Origin: Candidatus Kapaibacterium sp.
GTDB taxonomy: Bacteria; Bacteroidota; Ignavibacteria; Kapaibacteriales; UBA2268
Assembly (NCBI GenBank): GCA_026390695.1
Contig: JAPLFL010000071.1
Coordinates: 1 to 41,875, forward strand
Reading direction: 5' to 3'
Length of the DNA: 41,875 nucleotides
The notes under the pieces are model-generated. The model was not told the DNA's origin. It saw nothing but the letters and a program-made list of their open reading frames with translations, and did no database searches. Each line of letters starts with the position of its first letter. Within the stretch, counting starts at the first letter, position 1. Positions 2,973-26,087 of the stretch are shown here, piece by piece. The position numbers and the translations under genes were made by a program.

Positions 2973-3908
2973 TCAATTGTCGATCTGGTTATTCAGCAAA
3001 AAGTTCTTATAGAGTTTTTCATATTCTGCAACTCCGCGCTCTGCTTGAATACCTGCTTTATAGCTCTCTAATGCGTTTAAAATCAATTTTCTTTCCTCAT
3101 AGAACCTTCCGACAATTAAATTACCAAGCGCCGAATTTGAGTCCTTTCCAAGCTCTGTTTGAAGTTTTTTCAATTCCTTGTCAATCAGGATTGCTTCTTC
3201 CTTTGAAACAAGTTTAAAAGAAGATGTTTTGGGATGAATATTATTAACATCACTTGCTTCAATTGTCAGACTATATATTTGATTCGTTTTTAATTTCAAT
3301 TCTTCGGTATTAATATTAAAGCTTGGCTCTTCGGAAATAAATTCTCTGTTCAACTGCCCTTTTTTATCTTTCAAAGTAATCTTATACTTCTTGTTGTTAG
3401 CTATTGGCAGCCATTTTACGTCGATAGGAGCATTGCTTATATTTGTTTGAACCGGAAAGTTTGATTTGATTTCCGAAAGTTGTGTTATTGTATCGTCTAA
3501 CTTACGTTCCACTGCACCTGAAGCACCTGTTTTAACATTTTTCTTAGTCAGATCATCAATATTTGAAATTTCTTTTATGATATATTCTGAAAATCTAAGA
3601 TATTGTTTACTTCTTTTTTCAGTCATTTCATTACTTAATTCTGCACAATTATATTCACCAGGATTTTTAAGTTCCTTAGTTCCCCCCATTGAATATGACA
3701 AACCAACATATCCGTTAGTGCTGACTCTGATTTTATCCTTTGCAAATAAGTCCATACCGGCATTTGCCTGCGTCCAATTGCTGCTTCCGAACTTCTGCAT
3801 GGCAACCTCGCCGCGAACAGCGAGAATCTTGAAAGTTAGTTTCTCAGCATAAGAATATGCAGTAAAAATGAAACTAATAAGCAGAAATACGGTTATAATT
3901 TTTTTCAT
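2973..3908 (-). CDS. FecR-like secreted protein, copy A
   Basis: A 311-aa protein with a signal peptide (MKKIITVFLLISFIFTAYSYA) and a FecR-like beta domain at about residues 26-90 (ILAVRGEVAMQKFG, GMDLFAKDKIRVS, YVGLSYSMGGTKELKNPGEY). A central segment contains NIDDLTKKNVKTGASGAVER, then a fibronectin-like stretch (IDVKWLPIANNKKYKITLKD), and the C-terminus is helical and TPR-like (SALGNLIVGRFYEERKLILNALESYKAG). The start is supported by AAGGAG (3916-3921 on the minus strand), 8 nt upstream. Its ATG overlaps the upstream CHASE2 gene by 4 bp, so the two are almost certainly co-translated. It is a paralogue of the protein at 15941-16876, which has the same length. FecR in iron signalling is a sigma regulator with a membrane anchor; none is visible here, so it is probably periplasmic or surface-exposed. 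Its ligand and partner are unknown. Confidence 0.85.
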   Translation of the reverse strand: MKKIITVFLLISFIFTAYSYAEKLTFKILAVRGEVAMQKFGSSNWTQANAGMDLFAKDKIRVSTNGYVGLSYSMGGTKELKNPGEYNCAELSNEMTEKRSKQYLRFSEYIIKEISNIDDLTKKNVKTGASGAVERKLDDTITQLSEIKSNFPVQTNISNAPIDVKWLPIANNKKYKITLKDKKGQLNREFISEEPSFNINTEELKLKTNQIYSLTIEASDVNNIHPKTSSFKLVSKEEAILIDKELKKLQTELGKDSNSALGNLIVGRFYEERKLILNALESYKAGIQAERGVAEYEKLYKNFLLNNQIDN

Positions 3909-5128
3909 AATTTTTCTCCTTTGTTGATTTTTTTTAATCCGTGAAAAATGATTGGTTTTATTGAAAAAGTATATGCCTCAAAAATCATAAGAGACAGTGC
4001 GCATGCAAAGATTGCGCCGGTAACTTTCAATTCGAATAAATAAATAAGGAAGCAATAATACATAATAAACAGAAGTAAAATGGATTCGAGGACGAATATG
4101 AAAATGCTTGATAGCTCGTACCAATCGCGGAATTTATCGCATATAAAACCAAACAAAACCATATTGCAATAGCATACCAAAATTGGAAGAAGATAAAAGA
4201 GCCAACGCGGCATTTGATTGAAGTAATTACCTTCGATAATCATAGAAATAATATTTGCATGAACCTGCAAACCATACATATCAGGCCAGGAAACGCCGGA
4301 ATTCTTTTGAAGTGGTGTGAAATATAAATCTTTTAACGCATATTCGTCACTCGGTGCTTCTGCATCAACTTTTTTGCTAATTCCTAATAAAACTAATTTA
4401 TTTGAAAAGATATTTTTATCAAAATCACCGGCTATTATATTCTTGTAGTTTTCGGTCAGAAATTTATCAGTGCCCTTCCAATTAATTGTTTCGCGGCTCA
4501 ACTTACGACTAAGTAGTTTTTTGGCGGCTTCAGGATTAAGTAGCATAGCAAGTTTAACAGAAAAAGCGGTATCAATATTATCTTTGGAATGTACGATAGG
4601 AAGGCAAGTGCGAAGGGTAATAAATTGTTTATTTTCATCAAAGTAGAAATTCCCATGTCCTGTACTTGTAGCTCCCACAATATCACTGTCACTGACAATA
4701 TATCCATTAAAATAATTATGTTCTCTATTGAAATTTGTCAAAATCTTATTGATAATGATATTTTTATTATGATTAATAATCTGCGTAAGTTCAATATCTC
4801 CGATTGGATCAGAAAAGTCTTTATTAATAATTTTTTCAATACCGATACCCTTGGGAGCACATTGTTCAATAATGGCTATCAAAGCAGCAAGGTCACGATT
4901 ACTAATATTTTCGGAATTGATTAATGTGATATTAGTATCGGCAGAAATTGTGGACCGTTCTATGATTGAAGAGAAGGCGTTGTCAGTTATTTCAACATCA
5001 TCAAGAGTAAGTCTCAGTGGTTCAAAAACTGAGATATTAAATGCTTTCTCAAACAAAAACATAATAGCAAAAACTATCACAGTTTTGATAAAATTATCAA
5101 AAGTAAATATTTTAAGATTCTTTAACAT
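3905..5128 (-). CDS. CHASE2-domain membrane protein without output domain (second of pair)
   Basis: The 407-aa protein has an N-terminal membrane segment (about 13-30), a large extracytoplasmic CHASE2 domain (about 40-300) and three C-terminal membrane segments (about 305-390), ending in a short basic tail. CHASE2 signatures include NITLINSENISNRDLAALIAI, KLVLLGISKK and the late motif DMYGLQVHANIISMIIEGNYF. In characterised families CHASE2 precedes a kinase, cyclase or GGDEF domain; here nothing enzymatic follows the membrane segments. The start is preceded by GAGGAAG, and the gene overlaps the upstream CHASE2 gene by 17 bp and the downstream FecR-like gene by 4 bp. This argues for a stoichiometric envelope complex. 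I infer a sensory or scaffold role, with signal output passing through a partner protein. Confidence 0.85.
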   Translation of the reverse strand: MLKNLKIFTFDNFIKTVIVFAIMFLFEKAFNISVFEPLRLTLDDVEITDNAFSSIIERSTISADTNITLINSENISNRDLAALIAIIEQCAPKGIGIEKIINKDFSDPIGDIELTQIINHNKNIIINKILTNFNREHNYFNGYIVSDSDIVGATSTGHGNFYFDENKQFITLRTCLPIVHSKDNIDTAFSVKLAMLLNPEAAKKLLSRKLSRETINWKGTDKFLTENYKNIIAGDFDKNIFSNKLVLLGISKKVDAEAPSDEYALKDLYFTPLQKNSGVSWPDMYGLQVHANIISMIIEGNYFNQMPRWLFYLLPILVCYCNMVLFGFICDKFRDWYELSSIFIFVLESILLLFIMYYCFLIYLFELKVTGAIFACALSLMIFEAYTFSIKPIIFHGLKKINKGEKL

Positions 5129-6365
5129 TCTTCCTCGAAATTAGCTTCCTGAACCTGCCAAATACTTTTAATGATATTGGCTTAATTGAGTCGTGATATG
5201 CTTCGTAAGAAGTAGTAATAAGGCAAAGTCCGTAAAATTGACCGACCATATTAATCTCGAACCGGAAAAAATTAAGTACTGCTAAAATTATAACCCAGTA
5301 TAACACCAGTTCAACTAAAATTATAAGCAAGCTGACAGTCTCGTACAAATCAATATCATATTTTCTGATAAAAGAAAATAAAAGGACATTTAAATAAATA
5401 ATAATAAAACTTAAAACATGAGACCATATTACAGAATTTCTATTATAGAACTTCCCATCAAGAATCATTGAAATGATGTTTGCATGAATGACAACTCCAT
5501 ACATATCAGGGAATGAGCGGCCAATATATTTAGCATTCATCGGTGTAAAGAAAATATCCTCAAGAGTTTTGGTTTTCAAATCAGGTCCAAGGAACCCCAT
5601 TAATATAATTTTATCTTTGAGAAATCCGAGTGAATCTTGCTTTTTAAAAACATCGTCCCAATCTAAAGTCAAATATTTATCTGTGTTTCTACGGAAATTG
5701 ACTATCTCAGAGCGATTTTCACGACCAAGAAATCCATCAGCTTTAATAGAATCAAATTGCCGAGCTGCGGCTACAGCAAACGAAATCAGATGCTTACCTT
5801 TAATATTTACTTCTGGATAAAAAGTACGTTCAACTTCTTCCCAAGGTTTCTCAACATTTAAGGTAACAAAGCCCTGATAGCCGTATTTACCAAATATATC
5901 AATTGGGTTGGTCACATCATCAAATCGTTTATCCGGATCGTCCTCTTCTTCGCAGTCCTTACAATTTGTATCAACATTTAAACGACTGGCAAGGACAAGA
6001 TTTTCAACTTTTGATATTGAATTTGCGAAGACTGAGTCTAATTCTTTGGTCTTATGCTTGAAGAACATTATATCTAAAGCAATAACTTTTGGCTTCCATT
6101 TGTTGAGGATTTCAACTTGTTTTGCCAAACCATCACGTTTCAAATATCCTATATTGACAAGAACAATGTTCGTATCGGTTTTTATTGTTTTTTTATCATT
6201 TAAACTCGAAAATACAATGTTGGTGACGTCAAAATCCTGCATTATATTCTGAATAGGATTTAAAAAGTCAACTTGAAAAAAATACGGAAAATATTTCAGA
6301 ACCAGAAAAACTATAATGCATACCATTACATGATCAATGTGAAATATTTTTAGTAGTTTGTACAT
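5112..6365 (-). CDS. CHASE2-domain membrane protein without output domain (first of pair)
   Basis: A 417-aa paralogue of the next gene with the same plan: one N-terminal membrane segment (about 13-30), an extracytoplasmic CHASE2 region (about 35-310), three membrane helices (about 315-395) and a basic tail (FGRFRKLISRKN). Recognisable pieces are TNIVLVNIGYL, KVIALDIMFF, KIILMGFLGPDLKTKTLEDIF and DMYGVVIHANIISMILDG. It has an acidic insertion with a cysteine pair (NCKDCEEEDDPDKRFDD) near residue 140 that could bind metal or form a disulfide. It begins 12 bp after fixH, so it probably shares that transcript. Like its neighbour it lacks any catalytic or DNA-binding domain. Confidence 0.85.
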   Translation of the reverse strand: MYKLLKIFHIDHVMVCIIVFLVLKYFPYFFQVDFLNPIQNIMQDFDVTNIVFSSLNDKKTIKTDTNIVLVNIGYLKRDGLAKQVEILNKWKPKVIALDIMFFKHKTKELDSVFANSISKVENLVLASRLNVDTNCKDCEEEDDPDKRFDDVTNPIDIFGKYGYQGFVTLNVEKPWEEVERTFYPEVNIKGKHLISFAVAAARQFDSIKADGFLGRENRSEIVNFRRNTDKYLTLDWDDVFKKQDSLGFLKDKIILMGFLGPDLKTKTLEDIFFTPMNAKYIGRSFPDMYGVVIHANIISMILDGKFYNRNSVIWSHVLSFIIIYLNVLLFSFIRKYDIDLYETVSLLIILVELVLYWVIILAVLNFFRFEINMVGQFYGLCLITTSYEAYHDSIKPISLKVFGRFRKLISRKNVKES

Positions 6366-6376
6366 AAAGTATTGCT

Positions 6377-6823
6377 TTAATTCGTATTAAAATCAGTTTC
6401 CAGATAATACCTTGATGCTGAATCAGACAAATCAATTTTAACTTTCCACATTCCTTTAGCAAAAGATTTAAGATCAAAAAATTGTTTAAAAGAAGAATCA
6501 AGAATTAATTCGGAACGAAAATCCCGTCTGTCGTCGGAAACACAATAGAATAAAATTTTCCCTTTTGAACTTTTATTCAAATTTTTAGGAAAATTAAGTA
6601 TAAGATCATGCTGGTTCTTAGAAATACTAAATTCAGCCTGTAAAAATTTAGATTTATTGATAATATCAATCTGATCCTGATATTTAAGTTCTTTATCGTA
6701 ATAATTTTTTTCGACAACATCAATTTTACGAGTTGTAGCGTAAATTACCATCCCAATAGTGACAAGAGCAAAAGCAATATAAAGAATTGCAATCCTCCAT
6801 CCCCAGTTTTTCAAAATATTCAT
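6377..6823 (-). CDS. fixH: FixH/CcoH-like protein
   Basis: A 148-aa protein with one N-terminal membrane helix (about 9-31, WRIAILYIAFALVTIGMVIY) followed by KNYYDKELKYQDQID, the signature of FixH/CcoH, and a small extracytoplasmic beta domain. The family is associated with assembly of cbb3-type cytochrome c oxidase, with FixG/CcoG. It lies 54 bp downstream of ccoG, matching the usual order, and 12 bp upstream of the CHASE2 pair. The structural oxidase genes (ccoNOP) and the copper ATPase ccoI are not in the window. Confidence 0.88.
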   Translation of the reverse strand: MNILKNWGWRIAILYIAFALVTIGMVIYATTRKIDVVEKNYYDKELKYQDQIDIINKSKFLQAEFSISKNQHDLILNFPKNLNKSSKGKILFYCVSDDRRDFRSELILDSSFKQFFDLKSFAKGMWKVKIDLSDSASRYYLETDFNTN

Positions 6824-6876: not shown

Positions 6877-8322
6877 TTATTTTAACTTATTAATAAAATA
6901 AAAAGCAGTTTTTATCTCTTTCAATTTCTTACCATTATCATAAACTCCAATAATTATCTGGCTATTTTGAGCAGGAAGTTTCCTTTTATCAATTTTAATC
7001 AATATTGATGCCTCACTGGTCTGGCTCGGTTCCACCATAATCTTTTCATTACCCGGAATTTCAATAGCGCCTTCAGGAGATTCAAGTTTAAGATCCAAAG
7101 TCATAATCTTATATGTCCGATTTGTGAAACTTGCAGTATAGACATTTTCAACAACGAAATTATCAAGAGCAATAGGTTGAATATTTTTAACACGATGAAC
7201 TCGGGCATCCACATCGGTTCTGATTAGCATTAAAACGCTGATAAGGGTTATAAGAACAGTCAGCAAAGCAGAGTATATAATGATTCTGGGTGTAATTCTA
7301 AATTTTTGATTGAAAGCAATAGAATTAATCGAACCGTATTTTATCAGTTTTCTCGGTTTTTCTATTCTATCCATAATTTCATCACAAGCATCAATACATG
7401 CGGTACAGTTCACGCATTCAAGCTGAGCACCCTTGGAATTTCGTATATCAATTCCCGTTGGACAAACCCGGATACAAGCTCCACAGTCAATGCAATCTCC
7501 ATCAGCATTAGAATCATTTTTATCTTTTCTTGGCTCACCGCGTACATAATCATAGGCCACAATAATCGAATTATTATCAAGCAGCACTGATTGCAACCTT
7601 CCATAAGGACAAATCACGATACATGCCTGTTCGCGAAATCTTGCGAATATAAAATAAAATATTCCGGAAAATAAAAGCATAGCAATAAAACCGACCAGAT
7701 GAGAGCCTACAGGGTCTTTAATTATACTGAATAATTCATCTGTACCAATTATATATGACAGTAATAAATTTCCGGTTATAAATGAAATTATATAAAAAAT
7801 CGAATGCTTCAGAAACTTTTTAAAAAACTTCACCGCTGTCATAGACGAATTGTTAAGTTTCCTCTGAGTAGGAGCATCTCCTTCAATTAAATATTCGATT
7901 TTTCTGAAAACGAATTCCAAAAATAGAGTTTGTGGACAAGCCCAGCCACACCATAATCTCCCATATATTGCAGTAAAAAGAACAACAATAATTATCGAAG
8001 CAATAAATGCTAAAGCAAGTATAAAAAAATCCTGAGACCAAAAGACTAATCCGAAAATAATAAATTGTCTGTGGAAAAAATCGAATAATAAAAAAGGATG
8101 ACCTGATACTCTGATAAATGGAACAATAAAAAGGAATGCAAATAGTACAATAGCAACGGCAATTCTAGCTCGGTGAAATTTACCTCTGGGTTTTGATGGA
8201 TAAATCCATTTTCTCTTCCCTGTTCCATCAATAAATCCGACAACATCACGAAAAGTCTCACCGGATCCGTCGTCCGGGACAGTATTGTTCTTATTTAACT
8301 CTGAATTTAACTCTGTTTTCAT
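6877..8322 (-). CDS. ccoG: Cytochrome c oxidase accessory protein CcoG/FixG/RdxA
   Basis: A 481-aa polytopic membrane iron-sulfur protein. Membrane helices lie near 53-72, 88-119, 175-192, 208-228 and 345-365. Cysteine motifs are CGWACP (125-130), CIVICPYG (234-241), and two ferredoxin motifs, C277xxC280xxC283xxxC287P and C303xxC306xxC309xxxC313. The C-terminal 110 residues form an immunoglobulin-like IG-FixG domain. CcoG is needed for cbb3 oxidase biogenesis and is thought to reduce Cu(II) for the catalytic centre. The order queD-ccoG-fixH on one strand suggests transcription together, though the 92-bp gap to queD leaves room for a separate promoter. Confidence 0.96.
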   Translation of the reverse strand: MKTELNSELNKNNTVPDDGSGETFRDVVGFIDGTGKRKWIYPSKPRGKFHRARIAVAIVLFAFLFIVPFIRVSGHPFLLFDFFHRQFIIFGLVFWSQDFFILALAFIASIIIVVLFTAIYGRLWCGWACPQTLFLEFVFRKIEYLIEGDAPTQRKLNNSSMTAVKFFKKFLKHSIFYIISFITGNLLLSYIIGTDELFSIIKDPVGSHLVGFIAMLLFSGIFYFIFARFREQACIVICPYGRLQSVLLDNNSIIVAYDYVRGEPRKDKNDSNADGDCIDCGACIRVCPTGIDIRNSKGAQLECVNCTACIDACDEIMDRIEKPRKLIKYGSINSIAFNQKFRITPRIIIYSALLTVLITLISVLMLIRTDVDARVHRVKNIQPIALDNFVVENVYTASFTNRTYKIMTLDLKLESPEGAIEIPGNEKIMVEPSQTSEASILIKIDKRKLPAQNSQIIIGVYDNGKKLKEIKTAFYFINKLK

Positions 8323-14209: not shown

Positions 14210-15748
14210 ATGAATTTGAGATATTTTAAAATTCTGATATTAATTGTGTTTCTATTTTTGTTTAACATGCAGTCATATTCTCAAGCTGTTAAAAAAATAC
14301 AGGCAGGTGACGGAGTAAACACATTGTGCGATGAGACCAATCCTCATATTTCTTATGATGGGAAGACTCTTTATTTTATAAGAACAAACGATCCGAATAA
14401 TACTTTTGCAAAACAAATTCCAAATTCGCAAGATATATGGTATTCCACTCTCGATTCAAAAGGGAAGTGGTCAAAAGCAAAAAGGATGGACAAACCATTT
14501 AATCAGAGAAAATATAATTCTCTTATTCATGTATCCAAAGATGGGACTAAAATGCTAATACGTGGTGCTTATGAAAAAGGGAAATATATTGGTACCGGAT
14601 TCTCAACTACTGAAAAAAAAGATGGGAAGTGGACTGATCCTGAGCAATTGGAAATACCAGGTTTTAAGGTTTTAGATAAAGGTGCTTCAAATGGAGCATT
14701 TATGAGTTTCGATGAAAAAGTTCTTCTTATTTGCCTGAGTGAATCTGAGCAAAGTAAGAATTATAACATCTTTATTAGCTTTCTTGATTCAAATAAAAAT
14801 TGGACAAAGTTAGTACCCTTGCCTGAAACCATTAATTCAGCCTCTGATGAGTTCACTCCTTGCCTATCCAAAGATAATATGACAATGTATTTCTCCAGCA
14901 ATCGTGAAGGTGGCTATGGATTGACTGACATATACGAATCAGTCCGTTTAGATAATACTTGGCAAAATTGGTCAACTCCTCAGAATTTAGGAACCGAAAT
15001 CAACACAGATGGCTGGGACGGCTATCTCACACTTGATAATGATGAAATGTATGCTTATATGGTTTTAAATAATAAATTTTCAGCTGGAGATATTATAAAA
15101 TTTGTTTTACCTGAAAATTTTCGACCGAAACAATTCTTTTCGAGTAAGGGAAAAGTTTTAAATTCCAAAACAAAAACTCCTATTGACGCTGAAATTCACA
15201 TCGACATTCTGCCTGAAGGCAATTCTTATGCAACTATCAGACCTGATGCGGCGGGTAATTACCAGGTATCTTTTCCAATCGGTCAAAACTACGCTATCTA
15301 TGCTACTGCCGATAAATTTCTGTCAATCTCCGAGAATATAAATCTTTTCGTAAAACCTGATTCAAATGAGGTTTTAAAGAATTTGGAACTTGCCCCTCTC
15401 GAAATCGGATCAACCATAACTTTGAAGAACCTATTTTTCGATTTCGCAAAATCTTCTATCAGACCTGAATCATTTCCCGAATTAGATAGATTAGTCAATA
15501 TTTTGAAAGATAATCCCGGAGTTAATATTGAAGTTTCCGGCCATACTGATAATGTTGGTTCAGAGCAAAGAAATTTAATAATTTCTAAAGACAGAGCCAA
15601 TGCAGTTAAAACATATCTTATAACAAAAGGAATTGGAGAAGCTCGACTGACAGCCGCAGGATATGGAAAGGAAAAGTCAATTGCCACTAATGATAGCGAA
15701 GAAGGTAAACAAATGAACAGAAGAGTTGAAATTACAATAACAAAATAA
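14210..15748 (+). CDS. PD40 beta-propeller protein with OmpA C-terminal domain
   Basis: A 512-aa protein. A signal peptide (1-25, ending SYSQA) is followed by WD40-like PD40 blades (NPHISYDGKTLYFIRTN, DEFTPCLSKDNMTMYFSSNREGGYG), a carboxypeptidase-regulatory-like beta domain (about 312-385) and an OmpA/Pal peptidoglycan-binding domain (about 395-512) with VSGHTDNVGSEQRN, the D/R pair for diaminopimelate contact, and MNRRVEITI. AGGAG sits 6-7 nt upstream of the ATG. Such proteins anchor the outer membrane to the cell wall; homologous PD40-OmpA proteins in Bacteroidota are often linked to T9SS or gliding loci, which would fit the T9SS cargo here. There is no lipobox. Confidence 0.9.
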   Translation: MNLRYFKILILIVFLFLFNMQSYSQAVKKIQAGDGVNTLCDETNPHISYDGKTLYFIRTNDPNNTFAKQIPNSQDIWYSTLDSKGKWSKAKRMDKPFNQRKYNSLIHVSKDGTKMLIRGAYEKGKYIGTGFSTTEKKDGKWTDPEQLEIPGFKVLDKGASNGAFMSFDEKVLLICLSESEQSKNYNIFISFLDSNKNWTKLVPLPETINSASDEFTPCLSKDNMTMYFSSNREGGYGLTDIYESVRLDNTWQNWSTPQNLGTEINTDGWDGYLTLDNDEMYAYMVLNNKFSAGDIIKFVLPENFRPKQFFSSKGKVLNSKTKTPIDAEIHIDILPEGNSYATIRPDAAGNYQVSFPIGQNYAIYATADKFLSISENINLFVKPDSNEVLKNLELAPLEIGSTITLKNLFFDFAKSSIRPESFPELDRLVNILKDNPGVNIEVSGHTDNVGSEQRNLIISKDRANAVKTYLITKGIGEARLTAAGYGKEKSIATNDSEEGKQMNRRVEITITK

Positions 15749-15940: not shown

Positions 15941-16876
15941 ATGAAAAAAATAATACTATTTCTTTCGTTAATTCTTTTGGTATCTTCCGTTAATCTATTG
16001 GCTGCAAATGCTGATTTCAAAGTATTAGCCGTTAAGGGAGACTTATTTCTCCAAAAAAGAGATGGAAAAGGTTGGGATAAAATCAAAGCCGGATCTGATC
16101 TTTTCGAAAAAGATAAAATAAAAATAGGCAAAGGAGCATATCTCGGTTTGTCTTTTTCTAAAGGTGGTACAAAAGAATTAAAAAATGAGGGCGAGTATAA
16201 CATTTCAGATTTAGTTCATGAAATGGCAAGTAGAAAAGGTAATCTTACCAAACGATTTACCGATTATGTAACCACAGAAATTACAAATATTGATGATCTA
16301 ACTAAAAAAGGTAGTAAAACCGGTGCTACAGGTGCTGTAGAACGTGGTTTAGGTGATTCCACCACCCTTCTTTCCGTTATTAAATCGGATTTTCCGAATA
16401 AAACTTCTTTAATAGATCCCGCTGTGAAAATATCTTGGGATCCAGTTCCTAATGTTGCAAATTATCAAGTAACAATAACTGATAAAAAAGGAGCCGATGT
16501 TTTAAAAATGACTATGGCTGAACCGCAGATTGCTTTTAATGTCGAAGATATGAAACTTCAGAATAATCAATATTATACAATTACAATCAAACCTGCAACA
16601 GGAACTACTGTAAGCCCAAAAATAGGTTCGTTTAGCTTACTTCCAAAAGACAAAACACTGCTTATCGGAAAACAACTGAAAAATTTGAAGAGTGAATTAG
16701 GCCAAGATGAAAGTTCTGCTTTGGGGAATATAATTATTGGTAAATTCTACGAAGAAAATAATTTAAATATTGAAGCTTATTCTTCATATAAAAAAGCTGT
16801 AGAAATTGTCCCGGAAGTTCCAGAATACAAATCAATTTACGATACTTTCACCCAAAAAGTTGAGATTGCAAAATAA
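15941..16876 (+). CDS. FecR-like secreted protein, copy B
   Basis: 311 aa from ATG 15941, chosen because AAGGAG (15928-15933) and a signal peptide (MKKIILFLSLILLVSSVNLL) precede it; the frame is open from 15842 but that extension has neither. Architecture matches the protein at 2973-3908 almost segment for segment: FKVLAVKGDLFLQK, YLGLSFSKGGTKELKNEGEY, NIDDLTKKGSKTGATGAVER, then KISWDPVPNVANYQVTITD and a C-terminal helical repeat (SALGNIIIGKFYEENNLNIEAYSSYKKA). Unlike copy A it has no CHASE2 neighbours and follows the OmpA gene after a 192-bp gap, so it probably has its own promoter. An intrinsic terminator follows. Ligand and function are unknown. Confidence 0.87.
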   Translation: MKKIILFLSLILLVSSVNLLAANADFKVLAVKGDLFLQKRDGKGWDKIKAGSDLFEKDKIKIGKGAYLGLSFSKGGTKELKNEGEYNISDLVHEMASRKGNLTKRFTDYVTTEITNIDDLTKKGSKTGATGAVERGLGDSTTLLSVIKSDFPNKTSLIDPAVKISWDPVPNVANYQVTITDKKGADVLKMTMAEPQIAFNVEDMKLQNNQYYTITIKPATGTTVSPKIGSFSLLPKDKTLLIGKQLKNLKSELGQDESSALGNIIIGKFYEENNLNIEAYSSYKKAVEIVPEVPEYKSIYDTFTQKVEIAK

Positions 16877-19466: not shown

Positions 19467-22400
19467 TTATTTAACTATTTTGAAATTTTTATTCAAAATC
19501 ATTGATGGCGTTTTAAGAACAATTAAATACTCACCATTAGGTAATTCACCGGCAGAAAATAAAAATTTTCTCTCTCCATAAGAATTGATCTCGGTTTTAA
19601 TTAAATTTTTAATAAACTTCCCTGATAAATCAAATAGATTCAACTCAGTTAATCCCTGTTCTATCAAATCACACGTAAGAGTTATTTCATCCTTACCCGG
19701 ATTAGGAGAAATGCTGATAATACCCACTGGGGACGCATTTACTTCAATCAAACGCTTACCACCTTCATAACAGATTCCTATTATTTTAAAAGATCCGTCA
19801 ATCAAACGAAAATCCAAATTCACAGTATCGCCATTTTTATCAGTTAATACAAGGGATTTAAATTTTATCAGCGTTGTATCCGAATAGCCAAGTGCAGCAA
19901 TAACATCGAATTGCGCCAAGACAGAGTCCTTAACATTAAGAGGCATTTTCAAAATAATTTCAGTTGTATCTTTTTTAATATTATATGAAATATATTCAAA
20001 ATTTTGAGAATAACTATACGGAAATATAATATTTCCCGTAACTTGTAGCTCTGCAATAAGTGTATCGGCAATACCCTGAAACGAAATCTTTTTGACGTTC
20101 ATCATTGTTAAAAATATTGGTCTCAAGTCACCAGGATAAGCTGAATCACTATTTATCCGGACTATACCCCCGATACCTTGTCCAAAAAGCTGTGCTTTTG
20201 CCGGTGTCCCAAGTCCTTTATAAACAAAACCGAGATCACATGAGGTTCTGCCAAAATATTTCGGTTTAAATCGTAAACTAATTTCTTTGGTCATTCCTGA
20301 TTTTATTGTAAATCCCACTGGACTCAGAATTTCAAATTGAATCCTGTCCGGACCTAATAATGCAAGAGAATCGACTGAAAAATCATTTTCCGAATTATTT
20401 TCAATCGCTACGACAAGTGTATCTTTTTTATCAAAAAGATTGACAGCACCAAAATCAATAATTTTAGTATTAATTTTGAAATCAGGAAGAAATCCTTCTC
20501 CCCTGATAATGGCTTCGAAAATGTTATTAGTACAAAATAATTTAATTGTATCAGCAAAAATTCCAACCGATTCGGGCACAAAAGAAAATTCTGCATCTTG
20601 CTTAGAGCCGCTTGCAAGCATATATGGCGGAGGATCGCTTACAAATCTGAAACCTGATTTTTTAGTTAAAACAATTGAATCGACTTTAATTTTACAAGTG
20701 ACATTTGAAATAAAATCACTAATAATTGAATCTTTAATCATTGAGACAAGCACTTTGCCCATATCTATATCTATTAGCTTCAATGTAGGCTTAATTATAG
20801 AGAAAAGTGCATCACTTCTATCGGTTGGAAGATAAATATCGCTTTTTAGATTCCAGATACCAACTCTGAAATCTGCGGCCCCTGACGCGACTTTTTTTCC
20901 ATCCGGACTATATGAAAGACAAATTCCATTAACTCCATGCCCAACAAAATCTTTAATTATTTTATTATTGTAAATATCAAACAAATGAAAAGTCTGAGTA
21001 TTATCCGCAAAAATAAGTTTAGTGCCGTCCGGACTAAATTTATAATCATCCTGATATGATCCAAGTGTGAATTTAGAAAGAATAATACCGCTTTTTAAGT
21101 CATGAATTAATAAGTATGGCAGAGTCAAAAATTGATAACTTGCCCATGTGCTTGCCATAGTAGTTCCATCAGGACTGAACAGAACCTTATATGGAATTCC
21201 TGTTAATCCCTTCAAATTCGCAACAGGACTATGTGAAGGCAAAGAAATAATCTTTACCGTCGAATCTCCACAAGCAATTGCTATATTTCTACTGTCGGGA
21301 CTCAAAGCATAAGACTCGTACTTCATTCCCATAATTATACTATCTACAACGAACCCATTTTTCAGATCAGCTATCATAATATTTTTAAATTTATAATTAT
21401 AAGCGAATATCGTTGTATCCCTTGCAAACTTAGGCATAGGGCCATAAGACCAGTCATTATAATAAATAAAAGATGCAGCTTTTGCATTTGTATTTAGATC
21501 AAAAACGTTAATACCAGTCGAAGAGTAGCTCCAATTATCCTCCACATAATATTTTCCATAAGGATCAAGATACACAAGACCTTTTTTATTTTGATTTTTT
21601 AATAAATTCCCATTTGAAGCATCCCATTTTTTTAAAGTCCCGTCTGTACTGCTGCTGTAAATTTCAGTACCAGCGGGATTGAAGCATACTCCGCCAACAA
21701 TATAAGTATGACCACCATAAGTATAAATTGTTTCTCCTGATGGAATATCAGTAATTTTTATTGTCAAATCAGTACTCACACTTGCAATAGCCTTACAATC
21801 ATCAGTAAAAGATATATCATTAATCCTGTTATTATGCCCGCTAATTGTCTTGGAACAAATCCCAAGGTTCAAATCCCAAATTTTAAGAACATAACTATCA
21901 TCGTCTGTAATCGCATAATCTGCAAATTGACTAAAAGCAGCCGAAGTAAAATGTCCCTTTGAATCCCGAATAGAACTTAAACATGCTCCACTGACTCCAT
22001 CCCAAACCTTAATAAAATTATCAACCGCACAACTCATAAATTTTGTGTCATCGAAGTTATATCCAACTTTAATAATACTTCCTTTATGTCCATTAACGTC
22101 ACAAGTTTGTTTTAAATTACCAGAGAAATCCCATTCTTTAACTTTAAAATCATATCCCCCACTTAAAATCCTCGTACCCGCGTGATTAACCGCAATTGAA
22201 GCAACCATAAAGTCGTCAGCCTGAATTGTTTTTAAGCAGGAACCTGAAGCCATATCCCATATCTTTATTTTTTGGTCTTCACTACCGCTTACCAGCAATG
22301 AACCGTCGGGGGTAAAGGCAATCGACCTGACACCGCCCTGATGGCCGATAAATTTATCTATTTGCTTCCTTTTTTCAATATCCCAGATAATAATGTTCCA

Positions 22401-24122
22401 ATCCGAACCGGCACTTGCAATTAATTTAGAATCAGGGCTGAAAGTAACCGTGTTCACATTTCCATTATGCCCCATCATCGAAGCTACAACACCACCTTTT
22501 ATTCTGTTCCAGATCATTACTGAGCGATCAACACTACCGGTTGCAATATATTTGCCGTCAGGACTAAAGGCAACGGCTAACACAGCCTTTTTGTGAGATT
22601 CTAATAATCTGACTGAATCATCGGATTGCTCACGTTTTTTAAGAGATGGAAAAGATAAAGTTGCTCGAATCAAGCATGAATCGCTTGCAGGCAAAGGGAT
22701 ATTTTTCCATAGAAATTTAAAGTTCGTAGCGGAATCAGTTATATTAGTCCATGATTCGCCACCATCAATACTGTAACTCAATGAAACAGTATCATCGGGC
22801 ATAACTCCTTCATATTTGATTAAGGTGTCAGTTCCGGCTATTAATTTCTCATTACCGTTTGGAAAAACTATCTTAAGAGTTTGAATCAGACTTTGCGGGT
22901 TTGACCTCTTACCTGCATTGGCAAATGAAATCGAATGATCACATTCGAGTGTTTCATATTTTAAAACTGTAAAATTATATAAACTGTCAGAATCGCTTTT
23001 GAAGTGGATTTGAACTGTTTTAGGATTATTAGGAATTAATTTAAAAGGTGAAAATTTAACAATCGTAAAATTAGGATTTGAGCTTGATATATTTGAAATA
23101 TTTAAATTACCATTAATCACTCTCAATGTAATATTTGTATCCCTTGATTGCCCCTTAGCCACATTACCAAAATTTATTGAACTAGGTTCAATTTCAAGAT
23201 TTAGCAACCTATCTGATGCAATTTCATATTTCAAGTTACAGGTTTGATTCAATGGTTTAAGATTAATATCACAATCAACTGTTGTATTACAGCCAGGGCT
23301 GCTGATCCACTCTACCGTACAAGGATTTGAACCAGTTGCAACTTTAAGAATAATCATGTAAGCATTAATAGCATCCTGTTCGGTACGAATATTTTCATAA
23401 TATAAGCCACCAGTGCTTGCTGTAATGGTTTTTAAGCATTGCGGACATGTCATTCCAACAGATATTGCATAAATAGTTACAGAATCTTTAATTGCAGCTT
23501 CAATTATACCATCAGTTTCGGGTTCCTGACTCGGAAGACCATCAGTTAGCATCACGATTACACGTTTATTAATACCTTTTTTTGCAACAGGAATACCTCC
23601 TGCAGCAGGATCAAGCAGAGCTTTATTATAATTTGTACCGCCTCCGGCTACCAAATCACCAATACTCTGATTTAACAAGCTCCTATTTTTAGTAAAATCC
23701 TGATTCAATTGGTTACCGTCACTGAAACTGCTAACAGCACATTCAGAGTTTAACATATCCAAACTCTTAATCCATGCCTTAGCTGCCGATTTTGCGACTT
23801 CAAGATTTTTTTTGGCCATAGAACCTGAGATGTCAATGACTAAAACTGATGAGAGAGGGATTATAGTCTTTTCAGAAGTACAAGTCACCTTGAGAACCTG
23901 CCTTGCAAGCCCATTTTCGGTGATATTGAAATCGGATTCTCTGATATTATTTATTTGATTATAAGCAGCATCGAAAGCATAGAAGCTGGCTTTCATCAAT
24001 GGGTAAGATGTTGTATCCAGTTTAAAAATACTTAAAGACTGAGAGTTGGCTTCCAGTGCTATAATCGTAAAACAAATAAAATTCAGTAGAAATCTTGACA
24101 TACTTTTCCCAAATTTGTACAT
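19467..24122 (-). CDS. Giant secreted vWA / WD40 beta-propeller protein with T9SS tail
   Basis: The largest protein in the window, 1551 aa. Order: signal peptide (about 1-28, ending EANSQ); von Willebrand A domain (about 90-265) with an intact MIDAS motif D97-I-S-G-S101 and D194 (MLTDGLPS); Ig/HYDIN-like beta domains (about 310-500); at least ten WD40 blades (about 505-1130; HKKAVLAVAFSPDGKYIATG, GHNGNVNTVTFSPDSKLIA, GHQGGVRSIAFTPDGSLL); further beta domains with abnormal-spindle/HYDIN flavour (about 1150-1290); and a T9SS type A tail (last 84 residues, ISPNPGKDEITLTC). The protein should be secreted through T9SS and remain at the cell surface or be released; vWA plus propeller implies protein-protein adhesion. 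Start 24122 or M8 (24101) are both possible. Transcribed divergently from ccmC. Confidence 0.9.
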   Translation of the reverse strand: MYKFGKSMSRFLLNFICFTIIALEANSQSLSIFKLDTTSYPLMKASFYAFDAAYNQINNIRESDFNITENGLARQVLKVTCTSEKTIIPLSSVLVIDISGSMAKKNLEVAKSAAKAWIKSLDMLNSECAVSSFSDGNQLNQDFTKNRSLLNQSIGDLVAGGGTNYNKALLDPAAGGIPVAKKGINKRVIVMLTDGLPSQEPETDGIIEAAIKDSVTIYAISVGMTCPQCLKTITASTGGLYYENIRTEQDAINAYMIILKVATGSNPCTVEWISSPGCNTTVDCDINLKPLNQTCNLKYEIASDRLLNLEIEPSSINFGNVAKGQSRDTNITLRVINGNLNISNISSSNPNFTIVKFSPFKLIPNNPKTVQIHFKSDSDSLYNFTVLKYETLECDHSISFANAGKRSNPQSLIQTLKIVFPNGNEKLIAGTDTLIKYEGVMPDDTVSLSYSIDGGESWTNITDSATNFKFLWKNIPLPASDSCLIRATLSFPSLKKREQSDDSVRLLESHKKAVLAVAFSPDGKYIATGSVDRSVMIWNRIKGGVVASMMGHNGNVNTVTFSPDSKLIASAGSDWNIIIWDIEKRKQIDKFIGHQGGVRSIAFTPDGSLLVSGSEDQKIKIWDMASGSCLKTIQADDFMVASIAVNHAGTRILSGGYDFKVKEWDFSGNLKQTCDVNGHKGSIIKVGYNFDDTKFMSCAVDNFIKVWDGVSGACLSSIRDSKGHFTSAAFSQFADYAITDDDSYVLKIWDLNLGICSKTISGHNNRINDISFTDDCKAIASVSTDLTIKITDIPSGETIYTYGGHTYIVGGVCFNPAGTEIYSSSTDGTLKKWDASNGNLLKNQNKKGLVYLDPYGKYYVEDNWSYSSTGINVFDLNTNAKAASFIYYNDWSYGPMPKFARDTTIFAYNYKFKNIMIADLKNGFVVDSIIMGMKYESYALSPDSRNIAIACGDSTVKIISLPSHSPVANLKGLTGIPYKVLFSPDGTTMASTWASYQFLTLPYLLIHDLKSGIILSKFTLGSYQDDYKFSPDGTKLIFADNTQTFHLFDIYNNKIIKDFVGHGVNGICLSYSPDGKKVASGAADFRVGIWNLKSDIYLPTDRSDALFSIIKPTLKLIDIDMGKVLVSMIKDSIISDFISNVTCKIKVDSIVLTKKSGFRFVSDPPPYMLASGSKQDAEFSFVPESVGIFADTIKLFCTNNIFEAIIRGEGFLPDFKINTKIIDFGAVNLFDKKDTLVVAIENNSENDFSVDSLALLGPDRIQFEILSPVGFTIKSGMTKEISLRFKPKYFGRTSCDLGFVYKGLGTPAKAQLFGQGIGGIVRINSDSAYPGDLRPIFLTMMNVKKISFQGIADTLIAELQVTGNIIFPYSYSQNFEYISYNIKKDTTEIILKMPLNVKDSVLAQFDVIAALGYSDTTLIKFKSLVLTDKNGDTVNLDFRLIDGSFKIIGICYEGGKRLIEVNASPVGIISISPNPGKDEITLTCDLIEQGLTELNLFDLSGKFIKNLIKTEINSYGERKFLFSAGELPNGEYLIVLKTPSMILNKNFKIVK

Positions 24123-24273: not shown

Positions 24274-25314
24274 ATGAAACCTATAGGAATAATTTTAGGA
24301 CTTGGAATTGGATTATTAGTTGGACTTTTATATGGCATAGATAAGAAAAAGCCGCAGTGGTGGCAGATATTAGCTATTAGCTTGCTTTGTCTTGCATGCC
24401 TTGTTAATTTAGTTCCGCCATTATCCACCAATTTGCAGGTTGCAAAAAATGTAATAAAAATGAAATCGGATATTCTGATTCCGATAAAATTAACTCCAAC
24501 GGCTGCTATTCAGGATTATCACTCCTTTTCTGCCTTTGAAGTAAAATACAACAACATCACCGATACATTACTAACATCAAAGGAAATTGCAGCTAATCTG
24601 TCTCTGAACACTACTTACATAGTAGAATCAAAGTATGATACAACTCTGAATAAATTTTATTCGGACAAAATAGTATCGACTTCCCCATCCATCTCTTATC
24701 CATTTATTCCTACACTTAAAGATAGGATAAGGATAATGAATTTCCACGTCCCCGTTGCATGGGTCTGTGTTATTTCATTTTTATTATCAATGATATATTC
24801 GATAAAATATTTGAAAAAAAGAGATCTGTACTATGATTTAGTTGCTTCCTCGGCTGCTTCGATAGGACTGCTCTATACAATACTTGCTACCGTTACAGGT
24901 ATGTTATGGGCAAAGTTCAACTGGGGAGCCTACTGGAACTGGGATCCACGCGAAACATCAATCTTTTTTCTTTTGCTGATTTATTTTGCTTATTTCGGAT
25001 TACGCACAGCAATCGAAAATGATGAGCAAAAAGCAAGATTGAGTTCGGTTTACTCCATTCTTGCATTTGTTACTGTTCCATTCTTTATTTTTGTCTTGCC
25101 AAGGATTACTACCGGACTTCATCCGGGTTCAAAGGACGAATCTAACTCCGGGCCAGTACTAAGTGCTTCGCAAAATATGCTTGATTCGCAGCTTTTAATA
25201 GGTTTTGCCATTTCGCTTGCTGCATTCATTATAATATATTTCTGGATTTTCAACCTTAGGGTTCGAACTGCTAAAGCAGAACATAAATATGAATTATTAA
25301 AATTTAACAAATAG
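24274..25314 (+). CDS. ccmC: CcmC/CcsA-type heme export protein with N-terminal extension
   Basis: A 346-aa membrane protein. The C-terminal 200 residues are CcmC-like: RIRIMNFHVPVAW with the heme-ligand H158, and the tryptophan-rich WWD motif (WGAYWNWDPRETS, about 218-230), followed by further helices. The extra N-terminal 150 residues comprise two membrane helices (about 4-20 and 31-49) and a soluble beta-rich segment (about 55-145) that ordinary CcmC (about 245 aa) lacks. It presents heme to CcmE in system I cytochrome c maturation. ccmD follows after 7 bp. Confidence 0.9.
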   Translation: MKPIGIILGLGIGLLVGLLYGIDKKKPQWWQILAISLLCLACLVNLVPPLSTNLQVAKNVIKMKSDILIPIKLTPTAAIQDYHSFSAFEVKYNNITDTLLTSKEIAANLSLNTTYIVESKYDTTLNKFYSDKIVSTSPSISYPFIPTLKDRIRIMNFHVPVAWVCVISFLLSMIYSIKYLKKRDLYYDLVASSAASIGLLYTILATVTGMLWAKFNWGAYWNWDPRETSIFFLLLIYFAYFGLRTAIENDEQKARLSSVYSILAFVTVPFFIFVLPRITTGLHPGSKDESNSGPVLSASQNMLDSQLLIGFAISLAAFIIIYFWIFNLRVRTAKAEHKYELLKFNK

Positions 25315-25321
25315 AGGTTTT

Positions 25322-25462
25322 ATGATAGAATTTTTTGATAAAAACTCAATATATATAGTTCTCGGAATAGTTTTGATTATATGGGCTGGCTTATCTATGT
25401 ATTTATTCAATGTAGATAAAAAGGTTCAGAAACTTGAGAAACTGATTGAGACAAACGAGTGA
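25322..25462 (+). CDS. ccmD: CcmD-like small membrane protein
   Basis: A 46-aa gene lying between ccmC and ccmE. It encodes one membrane helix (about 9-29, SIYIVLGIVLIIWAGLSMYL) followed by a charged coiled tail (VDKKVQKLEKLIE). AGAGG precedes the ATG by 4-5 nt. CcmD is the small helix that keeps holo-CcmE in the CcmC complex. Length, topology and position between ccmC and ccmE support the call more than sequence does. Confidence 0.85.
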   Translation: MIEFFDKNSIYIVLGIVLIIWAGLSMYLFNVDKKVQKLEKLIETNE

Positions 25463-25683
25463 GTTTATTGATGAGTCCCTGCTTTATAATTTGCTGAGGG
25501 AATGTATTCCGGCTGAATCGGCATCAGAAGTTAAAGTTCAGCCATTTTTATGATAACAGGAATGACAATCTTGCACAAATTTTAATTATAAGACGGGCTC
25601 AAAAGATATTTATATAAAATATATATAAATTACATTTTCAGATTATAAATGATTATTTGTACACAAAAAAAATAGGATATTAT

Positions 25684-26073
25684 ATGAAAACACGATATAT
25701 AGTCGGTGCAATTTTGTTGGTAGGATTTATTATCTTAGCATTTACATCCTTTAGCCAGCAGAAAATAGATTATGCCGATTTTGCTTATGCCAAAGCTCAG
25801 GGTAAAACTTTTCAGGTGAAAGGTTATTGGGTTAAAGAAAATAAATATACCTACGACCCAGCAAAAAACCTCATGTCCTTCAATATGAAGGATACAACTT
25901 ATGCAATTACAAAAGTTGAGTATCAGGGCGCACCTCCGAACAATTTTGATATGGCAACTTCAGTTGTCGTCAAAGGGAAATTTGTAGGTGATGTATTCAA
26001 AGCCTCTGAAATTCTAACACAATGTCCATCGAAATACGATGCTAATTCAGTCGAACCACAAAAAGCAAACTAA
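25684..26073 (+). CDS. ccmE: CcmE heme chaperone, CxxxY type
   Basis: 129 aa from ATG 25684 (the frame extends to TTG 25657, but AGGAT lies just upstream of 25684 and the N-terminal anchor starts there). One membrane anchor (about 5-22) precedes an OB-fold periplasmic domain with FQVKGYWVKENKYTYDPAKN, SFNMKDTTYAITKVEYQG and VVKGKFVGDVFKASEILTQC. The heme-attachment histidine of the classical HxxxY motif is replaced by C114 in C-P-S-K-Y118. Cysteine variants with CxxxY are known from Desulfovibrio and archaeal CcmE proteins. The 3' end is 14 bp from ccmF. Confidence 0.92.
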   Translation: MKTRYIVGAILLVGFIILAFTSFSQQKIDYADFAYAKAQGKTFQVKGYWVKENKYTYDPAKNLMSFNMKDTTYAITKVEYQGAPPNNFDMATSVVVKGKFVGDVFKASEILTQCPSKYDANSVEPQKAN

Positions 26074-26087
26074 CAGGGAAATAAAAT

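Follow-up and report, generated by a model that had tools for sequence, protein, structure and literature searches.

What two CHASE2 membrane proteins without an output domain and a secreted FecR-like protein are doing next to ccoG and fixH is the question raised by a stretch of Candidatus Kapaibacterium sp. DNA (assembly GCA_026390695.1, contig JAPLFL010000071.1, positions 1 to 41,875; the whole stretch of 41,875 nucleotides is called the window below). Our results show that a CHASE2 gene and a gene for a secreted FecR-like/Fn3/TPR protein form a conserved gene pair of Bacteroidota that is independent of ccoG-fixH. In 66 of 80 named loci the FecR-like gene directly follows CHASE2 in the same orientation, while none of the 80 carries ccoG or fixH in its flanks (phmmer with the window's proteins; flanks of up to 8 kb, often shorter). 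The proposed sensor/adaptor pair is well supported, and an exported protease as its output is a lead. The features referred to below are as follows.

6877..8322, minus strand: ccoG (CcoG/FixG), TIGR02745 5.4e-120, a neighbour judged incidental
6377..6823, minus strand: fixH (FixH), Pfam FixH 1.9e-14, a co-directional neighbour judged incidental
5112..6365, minus strand: CHASE2-a, 417 amino acids (aa), Pfam CHASE2 3e-21, AlphaFold2 (AF2) model with a mean predicted local distance difference test score (pLDDT) of 92.7
5196..5204, minus strand: codons of E388-x-Y390 of CHASE2-a, in the last transmembrane (TM) helix near its cytoplasmic end
3905..5128, minus strand: CHASE2-b, 407 aa, a diverged paralogue of CHASE2-a, Pfam CHASE2 2.7e-16
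2973..3908, minus strand: F1, secreted FecR-like/retention-module-like protein with Fn3 and TPR, 311 aa, AF2 pLDDT 90.7
3504..3518, minus strand: F1 linker codons, residues 131-135 (GAVER), with Arg135 invariant in 68 of 68 rows
15941..16876, plus strand: F2, a second full-length FecR-like/Fn3/TPR protein that shares 44% identity with its in-paralogue F1 (support 100/99)
14210..15748, plus strand: OmpA-family gene (PD40 and OmpA) upstream of F2, Pfam OmpA 1.3e-21

On the minus strand the genes run in the order ccoG, fixH, CHASE2-a, CHASE2-b and F1. An earlier note on this DNA had placed fixH, a pair of genes for CHASE2 membrane proteins and one for a secreted protein on one strand, and the coordinates and Pfam bear this out. 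The overlaps it gave, 17 bp between CHASE2-a and CHASE2-b and 4 bp between CHASE2-b and F1, were right, but the gap between fixH and CHASE2-a, given as 12 bp, is 11 bp (6366-6376). F2 was absent from that note, although it lies in the same window as F1, on the opposite strand. The statement that no sigma factor or TonB receptor is nearby agrees with the Pfam results for the 24 window open reading frames (ORFs) of at least 150 aa, among which neither was seen; one of these ORFs was judged on the best 25 of its 48 families.

The named loci (L056-L135) are the best 80 of 213 confirmed in the genome collection; they share some contigs with L032-L055, and the counts of the two series were not added. 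CHASE2 is present in 23 of 60 genomes, a set that includes the window's own. In the named collection the window is closest to Kapaibacteria and Ignavibacteria. The 66 paired loci, 53 with one CHASE2 gene and 13 with two, come mainly from Ignavibacteria, Kapaibacteria and Cytophagales; cultivated bacteria with the pair include Fulvivirga (L091) and Marivirga (L133), each with a single CHASE2 gene, and Cytophaga aurantiaca. The other 14 have a different co-directional gene (six), an opposite-strand gene (five), no called CHASE2 ORF (two) or a contig edge (one); four of them (L079, L114, L115 and L135), all from Flavobacteriales, carry a divergent FecR-like gene upstream, and in total 73 of the 80 loci have a FecR-like gene. 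A search for this gene order in other genomes had been proposed beforehand, with restriction to close relatives as the outcome that would count against the system; the order in these 66 loci extends well beyond them. Within the window's family the order CHASE2-a, CHASE2-b, FecR-like recurs, and the FecR-like gene may be present in several copies. L034 has three of them, and L042, L044, L057, L058 and L062 each have an array of four after the two CHASE2 genes; in L057, L058 and L062, copies at the same position are orthologous. Among CHASE2 relatives on plasmids there is one record, from Bernardetia, with a 'hypothetical protein' gene behind CHASE2.

In the CHASE2 tree of 94 rows, the a and b proteins fall into two separate 14-row clades (support 100/99 for a, 100/100 for b), and L111 has a duplication of its own; the tree is unrooted and does not order the one-gene and two-gene states. 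The window protein and that of L061 are sisters in both of these clades (97/96 for a, 98/55 for b), and the window's two FecR-like proteins, F1 and F2, join L061 with support 100/98. Since the same grouping is found in all of these trees, the three genes appear to travel together. CHASE2-a and CHASE2-b appear to be old paralogues that stay together in the window's lineage.

The first idea for this locus was a respiration-linked assembly factor or redox sensor working with CcoG and FixH. The genes are co-directional and separated by only the short gap given above, two Cytochrom_C_asm genes, one with CcmF_C, lie at 24274-28490, about 16 kb from ccoG-fixH, and FixH shows a mild co-occurrence with CHASE2 (16 of 23 genomes with CHASE2 against 10 of 37 without, p 0.003; p 0.024 given genome size), but inside the family gives p 0.77 given size. 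The flanks of the 80 loci contradict it. Among the 22 other genomes with CHASE2, fixH is found in 15, on another contig in 14 (some contigs are short) and about 2 Mb away in one (G045), so that it lies elsewhere in all 15. Nine relatives in the family have instead an upstream gene of about 267 aa, which appears from its sequence to be an exonuclease III homologue; Exo_endo_phos is matched by 8 of the 113 same-strand genes within two genes of the pair, and we regard it as a housekeeping bystander. The link to respiration in the earlier note is therefore not borne out. Linkage to fixH was rejected on synteny, the placement beside ccoG-fixH looks like an incidental local rearrangement, and a joint function with CcoG-FixH, largely contradicted by the gene order, is very improbable.

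Both CHASE2 proteins of the window pass the Pfam PF05226 threshold (60.4 and 76.6 bits against a cut-off of 26.3), and no other CHASE2 match occurs in their 4.63-Mb assembly. The AF2 model of CHASE2-a shows one TM helix, a periplasmic CHASE2 domain, three C-terminal TM helices and a short cytoplasmic tail, and the hydrophobicity plot of CHASE2-b matches this layout; it was correctly noticed at the outset that both paralogues end after three C-terminal helices. A catalytic domain in the tails had been named in advance as the finding that would overturn the lack of an output, and the Pfam scan of both proteins found neither this nor any other credible domain. The same holds for length across the loci: the 92 complete CHASE2 ORFs (L056-L135 and the window) have a median of 416.5 aa, and the only one longer than 494 aa is a double-CHASE2 fusion, so no called CHASE2 ORF is long enough to hold an output domain; lengths only were compared here. 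The conserved core of the domain reads GxxxPDMYGxVxHANIxSMI. The CHASE2-a model was searched whole, with more than 400 residues, and not as the domain alone, so the lack of a Foldseek match at E 0.001 and a best VIA Z of 5.5 give no evidence for a novel fold. A search of PDB sequences found no CHASE2 relative.

Proteins of this shape might be one half of a split one-component receptor, in which CHASE2-a, CHASE2-b and the FecR-like protein sense the envelope and signal inward. The signal would leave by the conserved cytoplasmic end of the last helix and reach an enzyme, such as a kinase or cyclase, whose gene lies elsewhere. In other phyla CHASE2 is carried by kinases, cyclases or a caspase (PMC5192318, PMC9239204, PMC3501461), and close to where the last helix ends on the cytoplasmic side, E388 is conserved in 81% and Y390 in 96% of 73 rows, though the tail beyond them is variable. 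Against it, no kinase or cyclase recurs beside the pair: HATPase_c and Response_reg each account for 3 of the 113 neighbours, with Response_reg also in 2 of 120 ORFs of a distant sample, and no genome-wide search for enzymes lacking their own sensor was made. The effector-like neighbours described below have, by eye, N-termini like signal peptides. We consider such a receptor possible, though on balance unlikely.

The AF2 model of F1 (68 rows) consists of a signal helix, a beta domain (24-87), helices to residue 126, a linker, Fn3 (154-233) and TPR (236-306), with pLDDT below 50 at linker residues 133-138. Its top two Foldseek matches in the PDB are chains of MtxA (E 1.6e-7 for 4z29 and 3.2e-7). 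In VIA, residues 146-311 align with 4z29 at Z 9.3 over 149 residues with a root-mean-square deviation (rmsd) of 3.3, in a list where many rows with a single Fn3, covering mainly that domain, tie or exceed this Z; the identity in the structural alignments is 6-10%. The model thus holds the MtxA-type C-terminal fold of Ig/Fn3 and TPR, in a protein that is exported and some 310 aa long. Residues 22-99 align with 5ix9, a 'cell surface anchoring domain', at Z 12.3 over 75 residues (rmsd 2.2); 5ix9 is the retention domain of an ice-binding adhesin. In its confident model the N-terminal domain may thus resemble a retention module.

The label 'FecR' in the earlier note did not hold, as FecR PF04773 had no match in F1 up to E 10 in Pfam and none in NCBIfam, was absent from all 20 families matched by the 68 FecR-like rows at E 0.01, and was absent among the best 25 of 29 families for 25 FecR-like rows at E 0.1. 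Pfam MtxA_C (PF22121) does not match F1 and is found in 3 of the 68 rows at E <= 0.01 (best 0.0033), DUF928 (PF06051) does not match F1 and is weak in 3 of 68 (best 2.8e-4), and NCBIfam retention_LapA (NF033682) gives 17.5 bits in F2 against a cut-off of 50 (E 0.0036) and nothing in F1. These weak matches agree with the folds that the models predict. The MtxA_C profile had no match in the window's own genome, where the controls were equally silent. Profiles A1 and A4 matched mostly TPR and some Fn3 chains among PDB sequences, and in the matches listed (35 for A1, 60 of 63 for A4) MtxA did not appear.

The columns that are fully invariant in the 68 FecR-like rows are G33, R135 and W166, and the 25 rows of A1 likewise show no exception at R135. 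This residue closes the linker motif G-[AS]-V-x-R, present in 53 of the 68 rows; of 87 FecR-like ORFs, 78 have a GxVxR or GxIxR within residues 91-260, compared with 27 of the 363 other ORFs. Because an invariant residue stands here in a linker modelled as disordered, a recognition site is suggested, which may serve CHASE2 docking or a protease. At P1, Arg or Lys is reported to be favoured by caspase homologues (PMC7475262), a preference that Arg135 would fit. By analogy with LapD and LapG, the FecR-like protein could be a cleavable substrate or pro-segment, cut after Arg135 by an exported caspase, CHAT or papain-like protease, with CHASE2 shielding or presenting the site. We hold such an Arg-specific proteolytic circuit to be quite unlikely. 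If true, a large uncharacterised class of proteins in Bacteroidota would turn out to be proteolytic switches of the envelope and a family of a new kind, and bacterial caspases would be effectors outside the cytoplasm.

Natural fusions bear on the question of which parts touch each other. L056, on the same contig as L037, encodes a CHASE2-a-CHASE2-b fusion of 825 aa, whose halves fall in the expected a and b clades. L048 is a single protein of 750 aa with CHASE2 at residues 2-403 and FecR-like/Fn3/TPR at 411-742, joined by a hydrophobic stretch (405-433) that looks like a former signal peptide turned membrane helix. In L082 (whose contig is also that of L049) and L083 the CHASE2 gene is kept, and a caspase and an outer-membrane-barrel match, weak in L083, take the place of Fn3/TPR after the FecR-like domain, which spans model positions 1-156 and 6-154. 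All three FecR-like fusions keep the linker motif (TGSVER in L048, TASVDR in L082, TASVER in L083). As the FecR-like domain is common to them, it is taken as the probable CHASE2-binding part, and the fusions support a single complex.

The genes around the pair suggested what such a complex might act on. The 113 same-strand neighbours include six papain-like C1, four CHAT and three caspase C14 proteases, whereas 285 ORFs at least four genes away include two caspases, no CHAT and no C1. The difference, 13 of 113 against 2 of 285 (Fisher 2.8e-6), counts non-independent cases, as the loci with a protease belong to a small number of clades; the far set also comes from the same loci. The labels used query domains cut from the neighbours themselves, and the independent check is a Pfam scan, which again gave six C1, four CHAT and three C14; in a far sample of 120 of the 235 far ORFs of at least 150 aa it gave two C14, with CHAT and C1 not among the 25 commonest families. 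Neither set includes edge ORFs or those shorter than 100 aa. FecR-caspase fusions were placed with the FecR-like genes and not with the neighbours, L080 and L108, which have a FecR-like gene and no called CHASE2 ORF, stand outside the counts, and the caspases at distance 3 (L081, L085, L093, L095) are in neither set. The two far caspases are most likely those of L074 and L088 at distance 5, from the same papain-caspase runs as the near genes.

These runs are found in six loci of the Ignavibacterial branch (L074, L081, L085, L088, L093, L095), in the order CHASE2, FecR-like, papain-like and, further on, caspase, with one gene inserted after CHASE2 in L074. L068 has a caspase before the pair and a papain-like gene after it, and in L054 (genome G058) a caspase-bearing ORF lies upstream, in a co-directional run that ends in an OmpA-family gene, CHASE2 and FecR-like. 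Nearly all of the protease N-termini shown resemble signal peptides by eye, where the CHAT protein of L087 is cut off and the start of L083 was called too far upstream. At least one same-strand protease gene in or near the pair is present in 16 of the 78 loci with a called CHASE2 ORF. At the genome level, CHAT occurs with CHASE2 in the window's family (12 of 13 against 6 of 23, p 0.0003; p 0.007 given size), and so does CHAT or caspase overall (17 of 23 against 10 of 37, p 0.0005; p 0.006 given size). The window's own genome has three caspase and two CHAT matches. A related genome, G050, holds 15 CHAT-domain matches, several of them weak pieces on contig C164.

We tentatively favour, at somewhat less than even confidence, a periplasmic CHASE2/FecR-like sensor and adaptor that gates an exported protease, with the position beside ccoG-fixH accidental. 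CHASE2-a and CHASE2-b would form a heteromeric membrane receptor and, with the FecR-like protein, one complex reaching from the inner membrane into the periplasm. The FecR-like protein would bind the CHASE2 domains through its N-terminal domain, the Arg135 linker or both, and with no output domain present the signal would pass sideways within the periplasm. The Fn3/TPR part would bind an exported effector, as would the caspase or OmpA-type proteins found in its place or beside it in other loci. In most cases this effector would be a protease of the caspase-fold, CHAT or papain-like kind, acting at the outer membrane or the cell wall under the control of the complex; this gating is the step we infer. 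In the window's own genome the effector could be encoded elsewhere, among the caspase and CHAT matches, or be the OmpA-type protein beside F2.

Several observations weigh against this proposal, in addition to the non-independence of the neighbour test. No such protease lies in the fetched stretch of 62 of the 78 loci, nor in that of any double-CHASE2 locus (L057-L067, L069, L111), and no caspase, CHAT or papain-like protease was found among the Pfam-scanned ORFs of the window. Outside the family the co-occurrence of CHAT with CHASE2 is 0 of 10 against 2 of 14. Over all genomes, that of caspase is weak (11 of 23 against 6 of 37, p 0.017; p 0.11 given size). As the comparison gene FixH is overall as strong, protease co-occurrence is weak evidence. 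E388-x-Y390, near the cytoplasmic helix end, may mean a cytoplasmic partner. An mtxA deletion mutant is reported to have had no phenotype in standard culture (PMC4439547), and SMc02177, a FecR-domain protein in a CHASE2-cyclase pathway of Sinorhizobium, was not required for plant-signal perception (PMC5498481).

A structural role was also considered, in which CHASE2 anchors the Fn3/TPR protein and so ties the inner membrane to OmpA-type proteins of the wall or outer membrane, with no signalling. OmpA-family genes are more frequent near the pair (4 of 113 against 1 of 285, p 0.02), with one upstream of F2 in the window and of CHASE2 in L039 and L054, and in Burkholderia a wall-binding LysM FecR protein is paired with a CHASE2 kinase (PMC5192318). 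A pure tether would not lead us to expect the fusion of a FecR-like part to a caspase, nor does it sit well with the strongly conserved CHASE2 core and the signalling outputs paired with CHASE2 in other phyla. We therefore regard a scaffold as doubtful.

Some other neighbours were set aside. In Cyclobacteriaceae the pair is followed by a gene of about 300 aa that encodes a subunit of succinyl-CoA ligase (CoA_binding/Ligase_CoA, 12 of 113), which we regard as a housekeeping bystander. A defence system was rejected, as PADLOC matched none of the three window proteins; among four neighbours submitted to it, those of L068 (675 aa) and L082 matched 'caspase' only. NfeD and SPFH/Band 7 genes occur downstream of the pair in some relatives (L052, 11944-12381; L076, 10826-11806), NfeD in 3 of 113, as another envelope association. 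In the window, the sequence downstream of F1 is rich in repeats: a mostly intergenic array of 21/42/84-bp units at 2269-2740, a 221-bp unit in two copies of 98% identity at 1755-2196 with a 34-bp tandem repeat inside, and at 2840-2930 an inverted repeat resembling, by eye, attcctgcgtatgcaggaat, a type often scattered in genomes. A protein with WD40 and a secretion tail is encoded at 738-1760, and one of 1551 aa with many WD40 repeats at 19467-24122.

The ligand of CHASE2 is stated to be unknown (PMC5192318). With the pair described here, this orphan sensor gains a widespread form without output and with one exported partner across Bacteroidota classes. The partner is joined by its modelled fold to MtxA, Arg135 offers a precise testable site, and exported caspase-fold and papain-like proteases are a candidate effector class.

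The pairing is not without precedent. In magnetotactic bacteria the mtxA gene adjoins a gene for a CHASE2-adenylate cyclase (PMC4439547). Like F1, MtxA is exported, has about 313 aa with Ig/Fn3 followed by TPR, and is encoded beside CHASE2; unlike in the window, that CHASE2 protein carries a cyclase, and F1 lacks a Pfam MtxA_C match. MtxA was reported there as being without homology. The BiofilmReg operon of Burkholderia encodes a response regulator, a LysM-FecR protein and a CHASE2 histidine kinase (PMC5192318), so that here too the gene of an exported FecR protein adjoins CHASE2, but the CHASE2 protein has kinase domains and the FecR protein has LysM in place of Fn3/TPR. A Campylobacterota cluster combines a CHASE2 adenylate cyclase with FecR and TPR proteins and a cAMP phosphodiesterase (PMC9239204), resembling the window in its CHASE2, FecR and TPR parts and differing in its cyclase output and in having FecR and TPR on separate proteins. 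In Nostoc a gene array holds CHASE2 and DUF928 (PMC5587647), the family matched weakly by the three FecR-like rows mentioned above. Trichodesmium has a CHASE2-metacaspase protein (PMC3501461, PMC2853523), which like the Bacteroidota loci links a caspase to CHASE2; its caspase is predicted to be cytoplasmic and N-terminal to CHASE2, whereas the Bacteroidota caspases look exported and join the FecR-like part.

The LapA/LapG/LapD circuit shares with F1 a beta domain, a helix, a conserved linker motif and an inner-membrane receptor, but its linker motif is [T/A/P]AAG and not GxVxR-like (PMC6890996, PMC13090378). LapG and LapD domains were absent from the Pfam results of the window ORFs, with no genome-wide search made, and the relation would be one of analogy. 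The literature searched held no paper joining CHASE2 with a CHAT domain. Since MtxA, FecR or DUF928 proteins beside CHASE2 kinases, cyclases and sensors are already known in pieces from other phyla, the window's set is an output-less variant of a known pairing. The earlier note's three-part envelope set without output is thus supported, but its description as a system not recognised is half right, as published work on other phyla already describes FecR or TPR proteins next to CHASE2 kinases and cyclases. As far as our searches show, what is new is the Bacteroidota form that lacks an output, together with its doubled CHASE2, the fusions found in nature and the genes for exported proteases near the pair.

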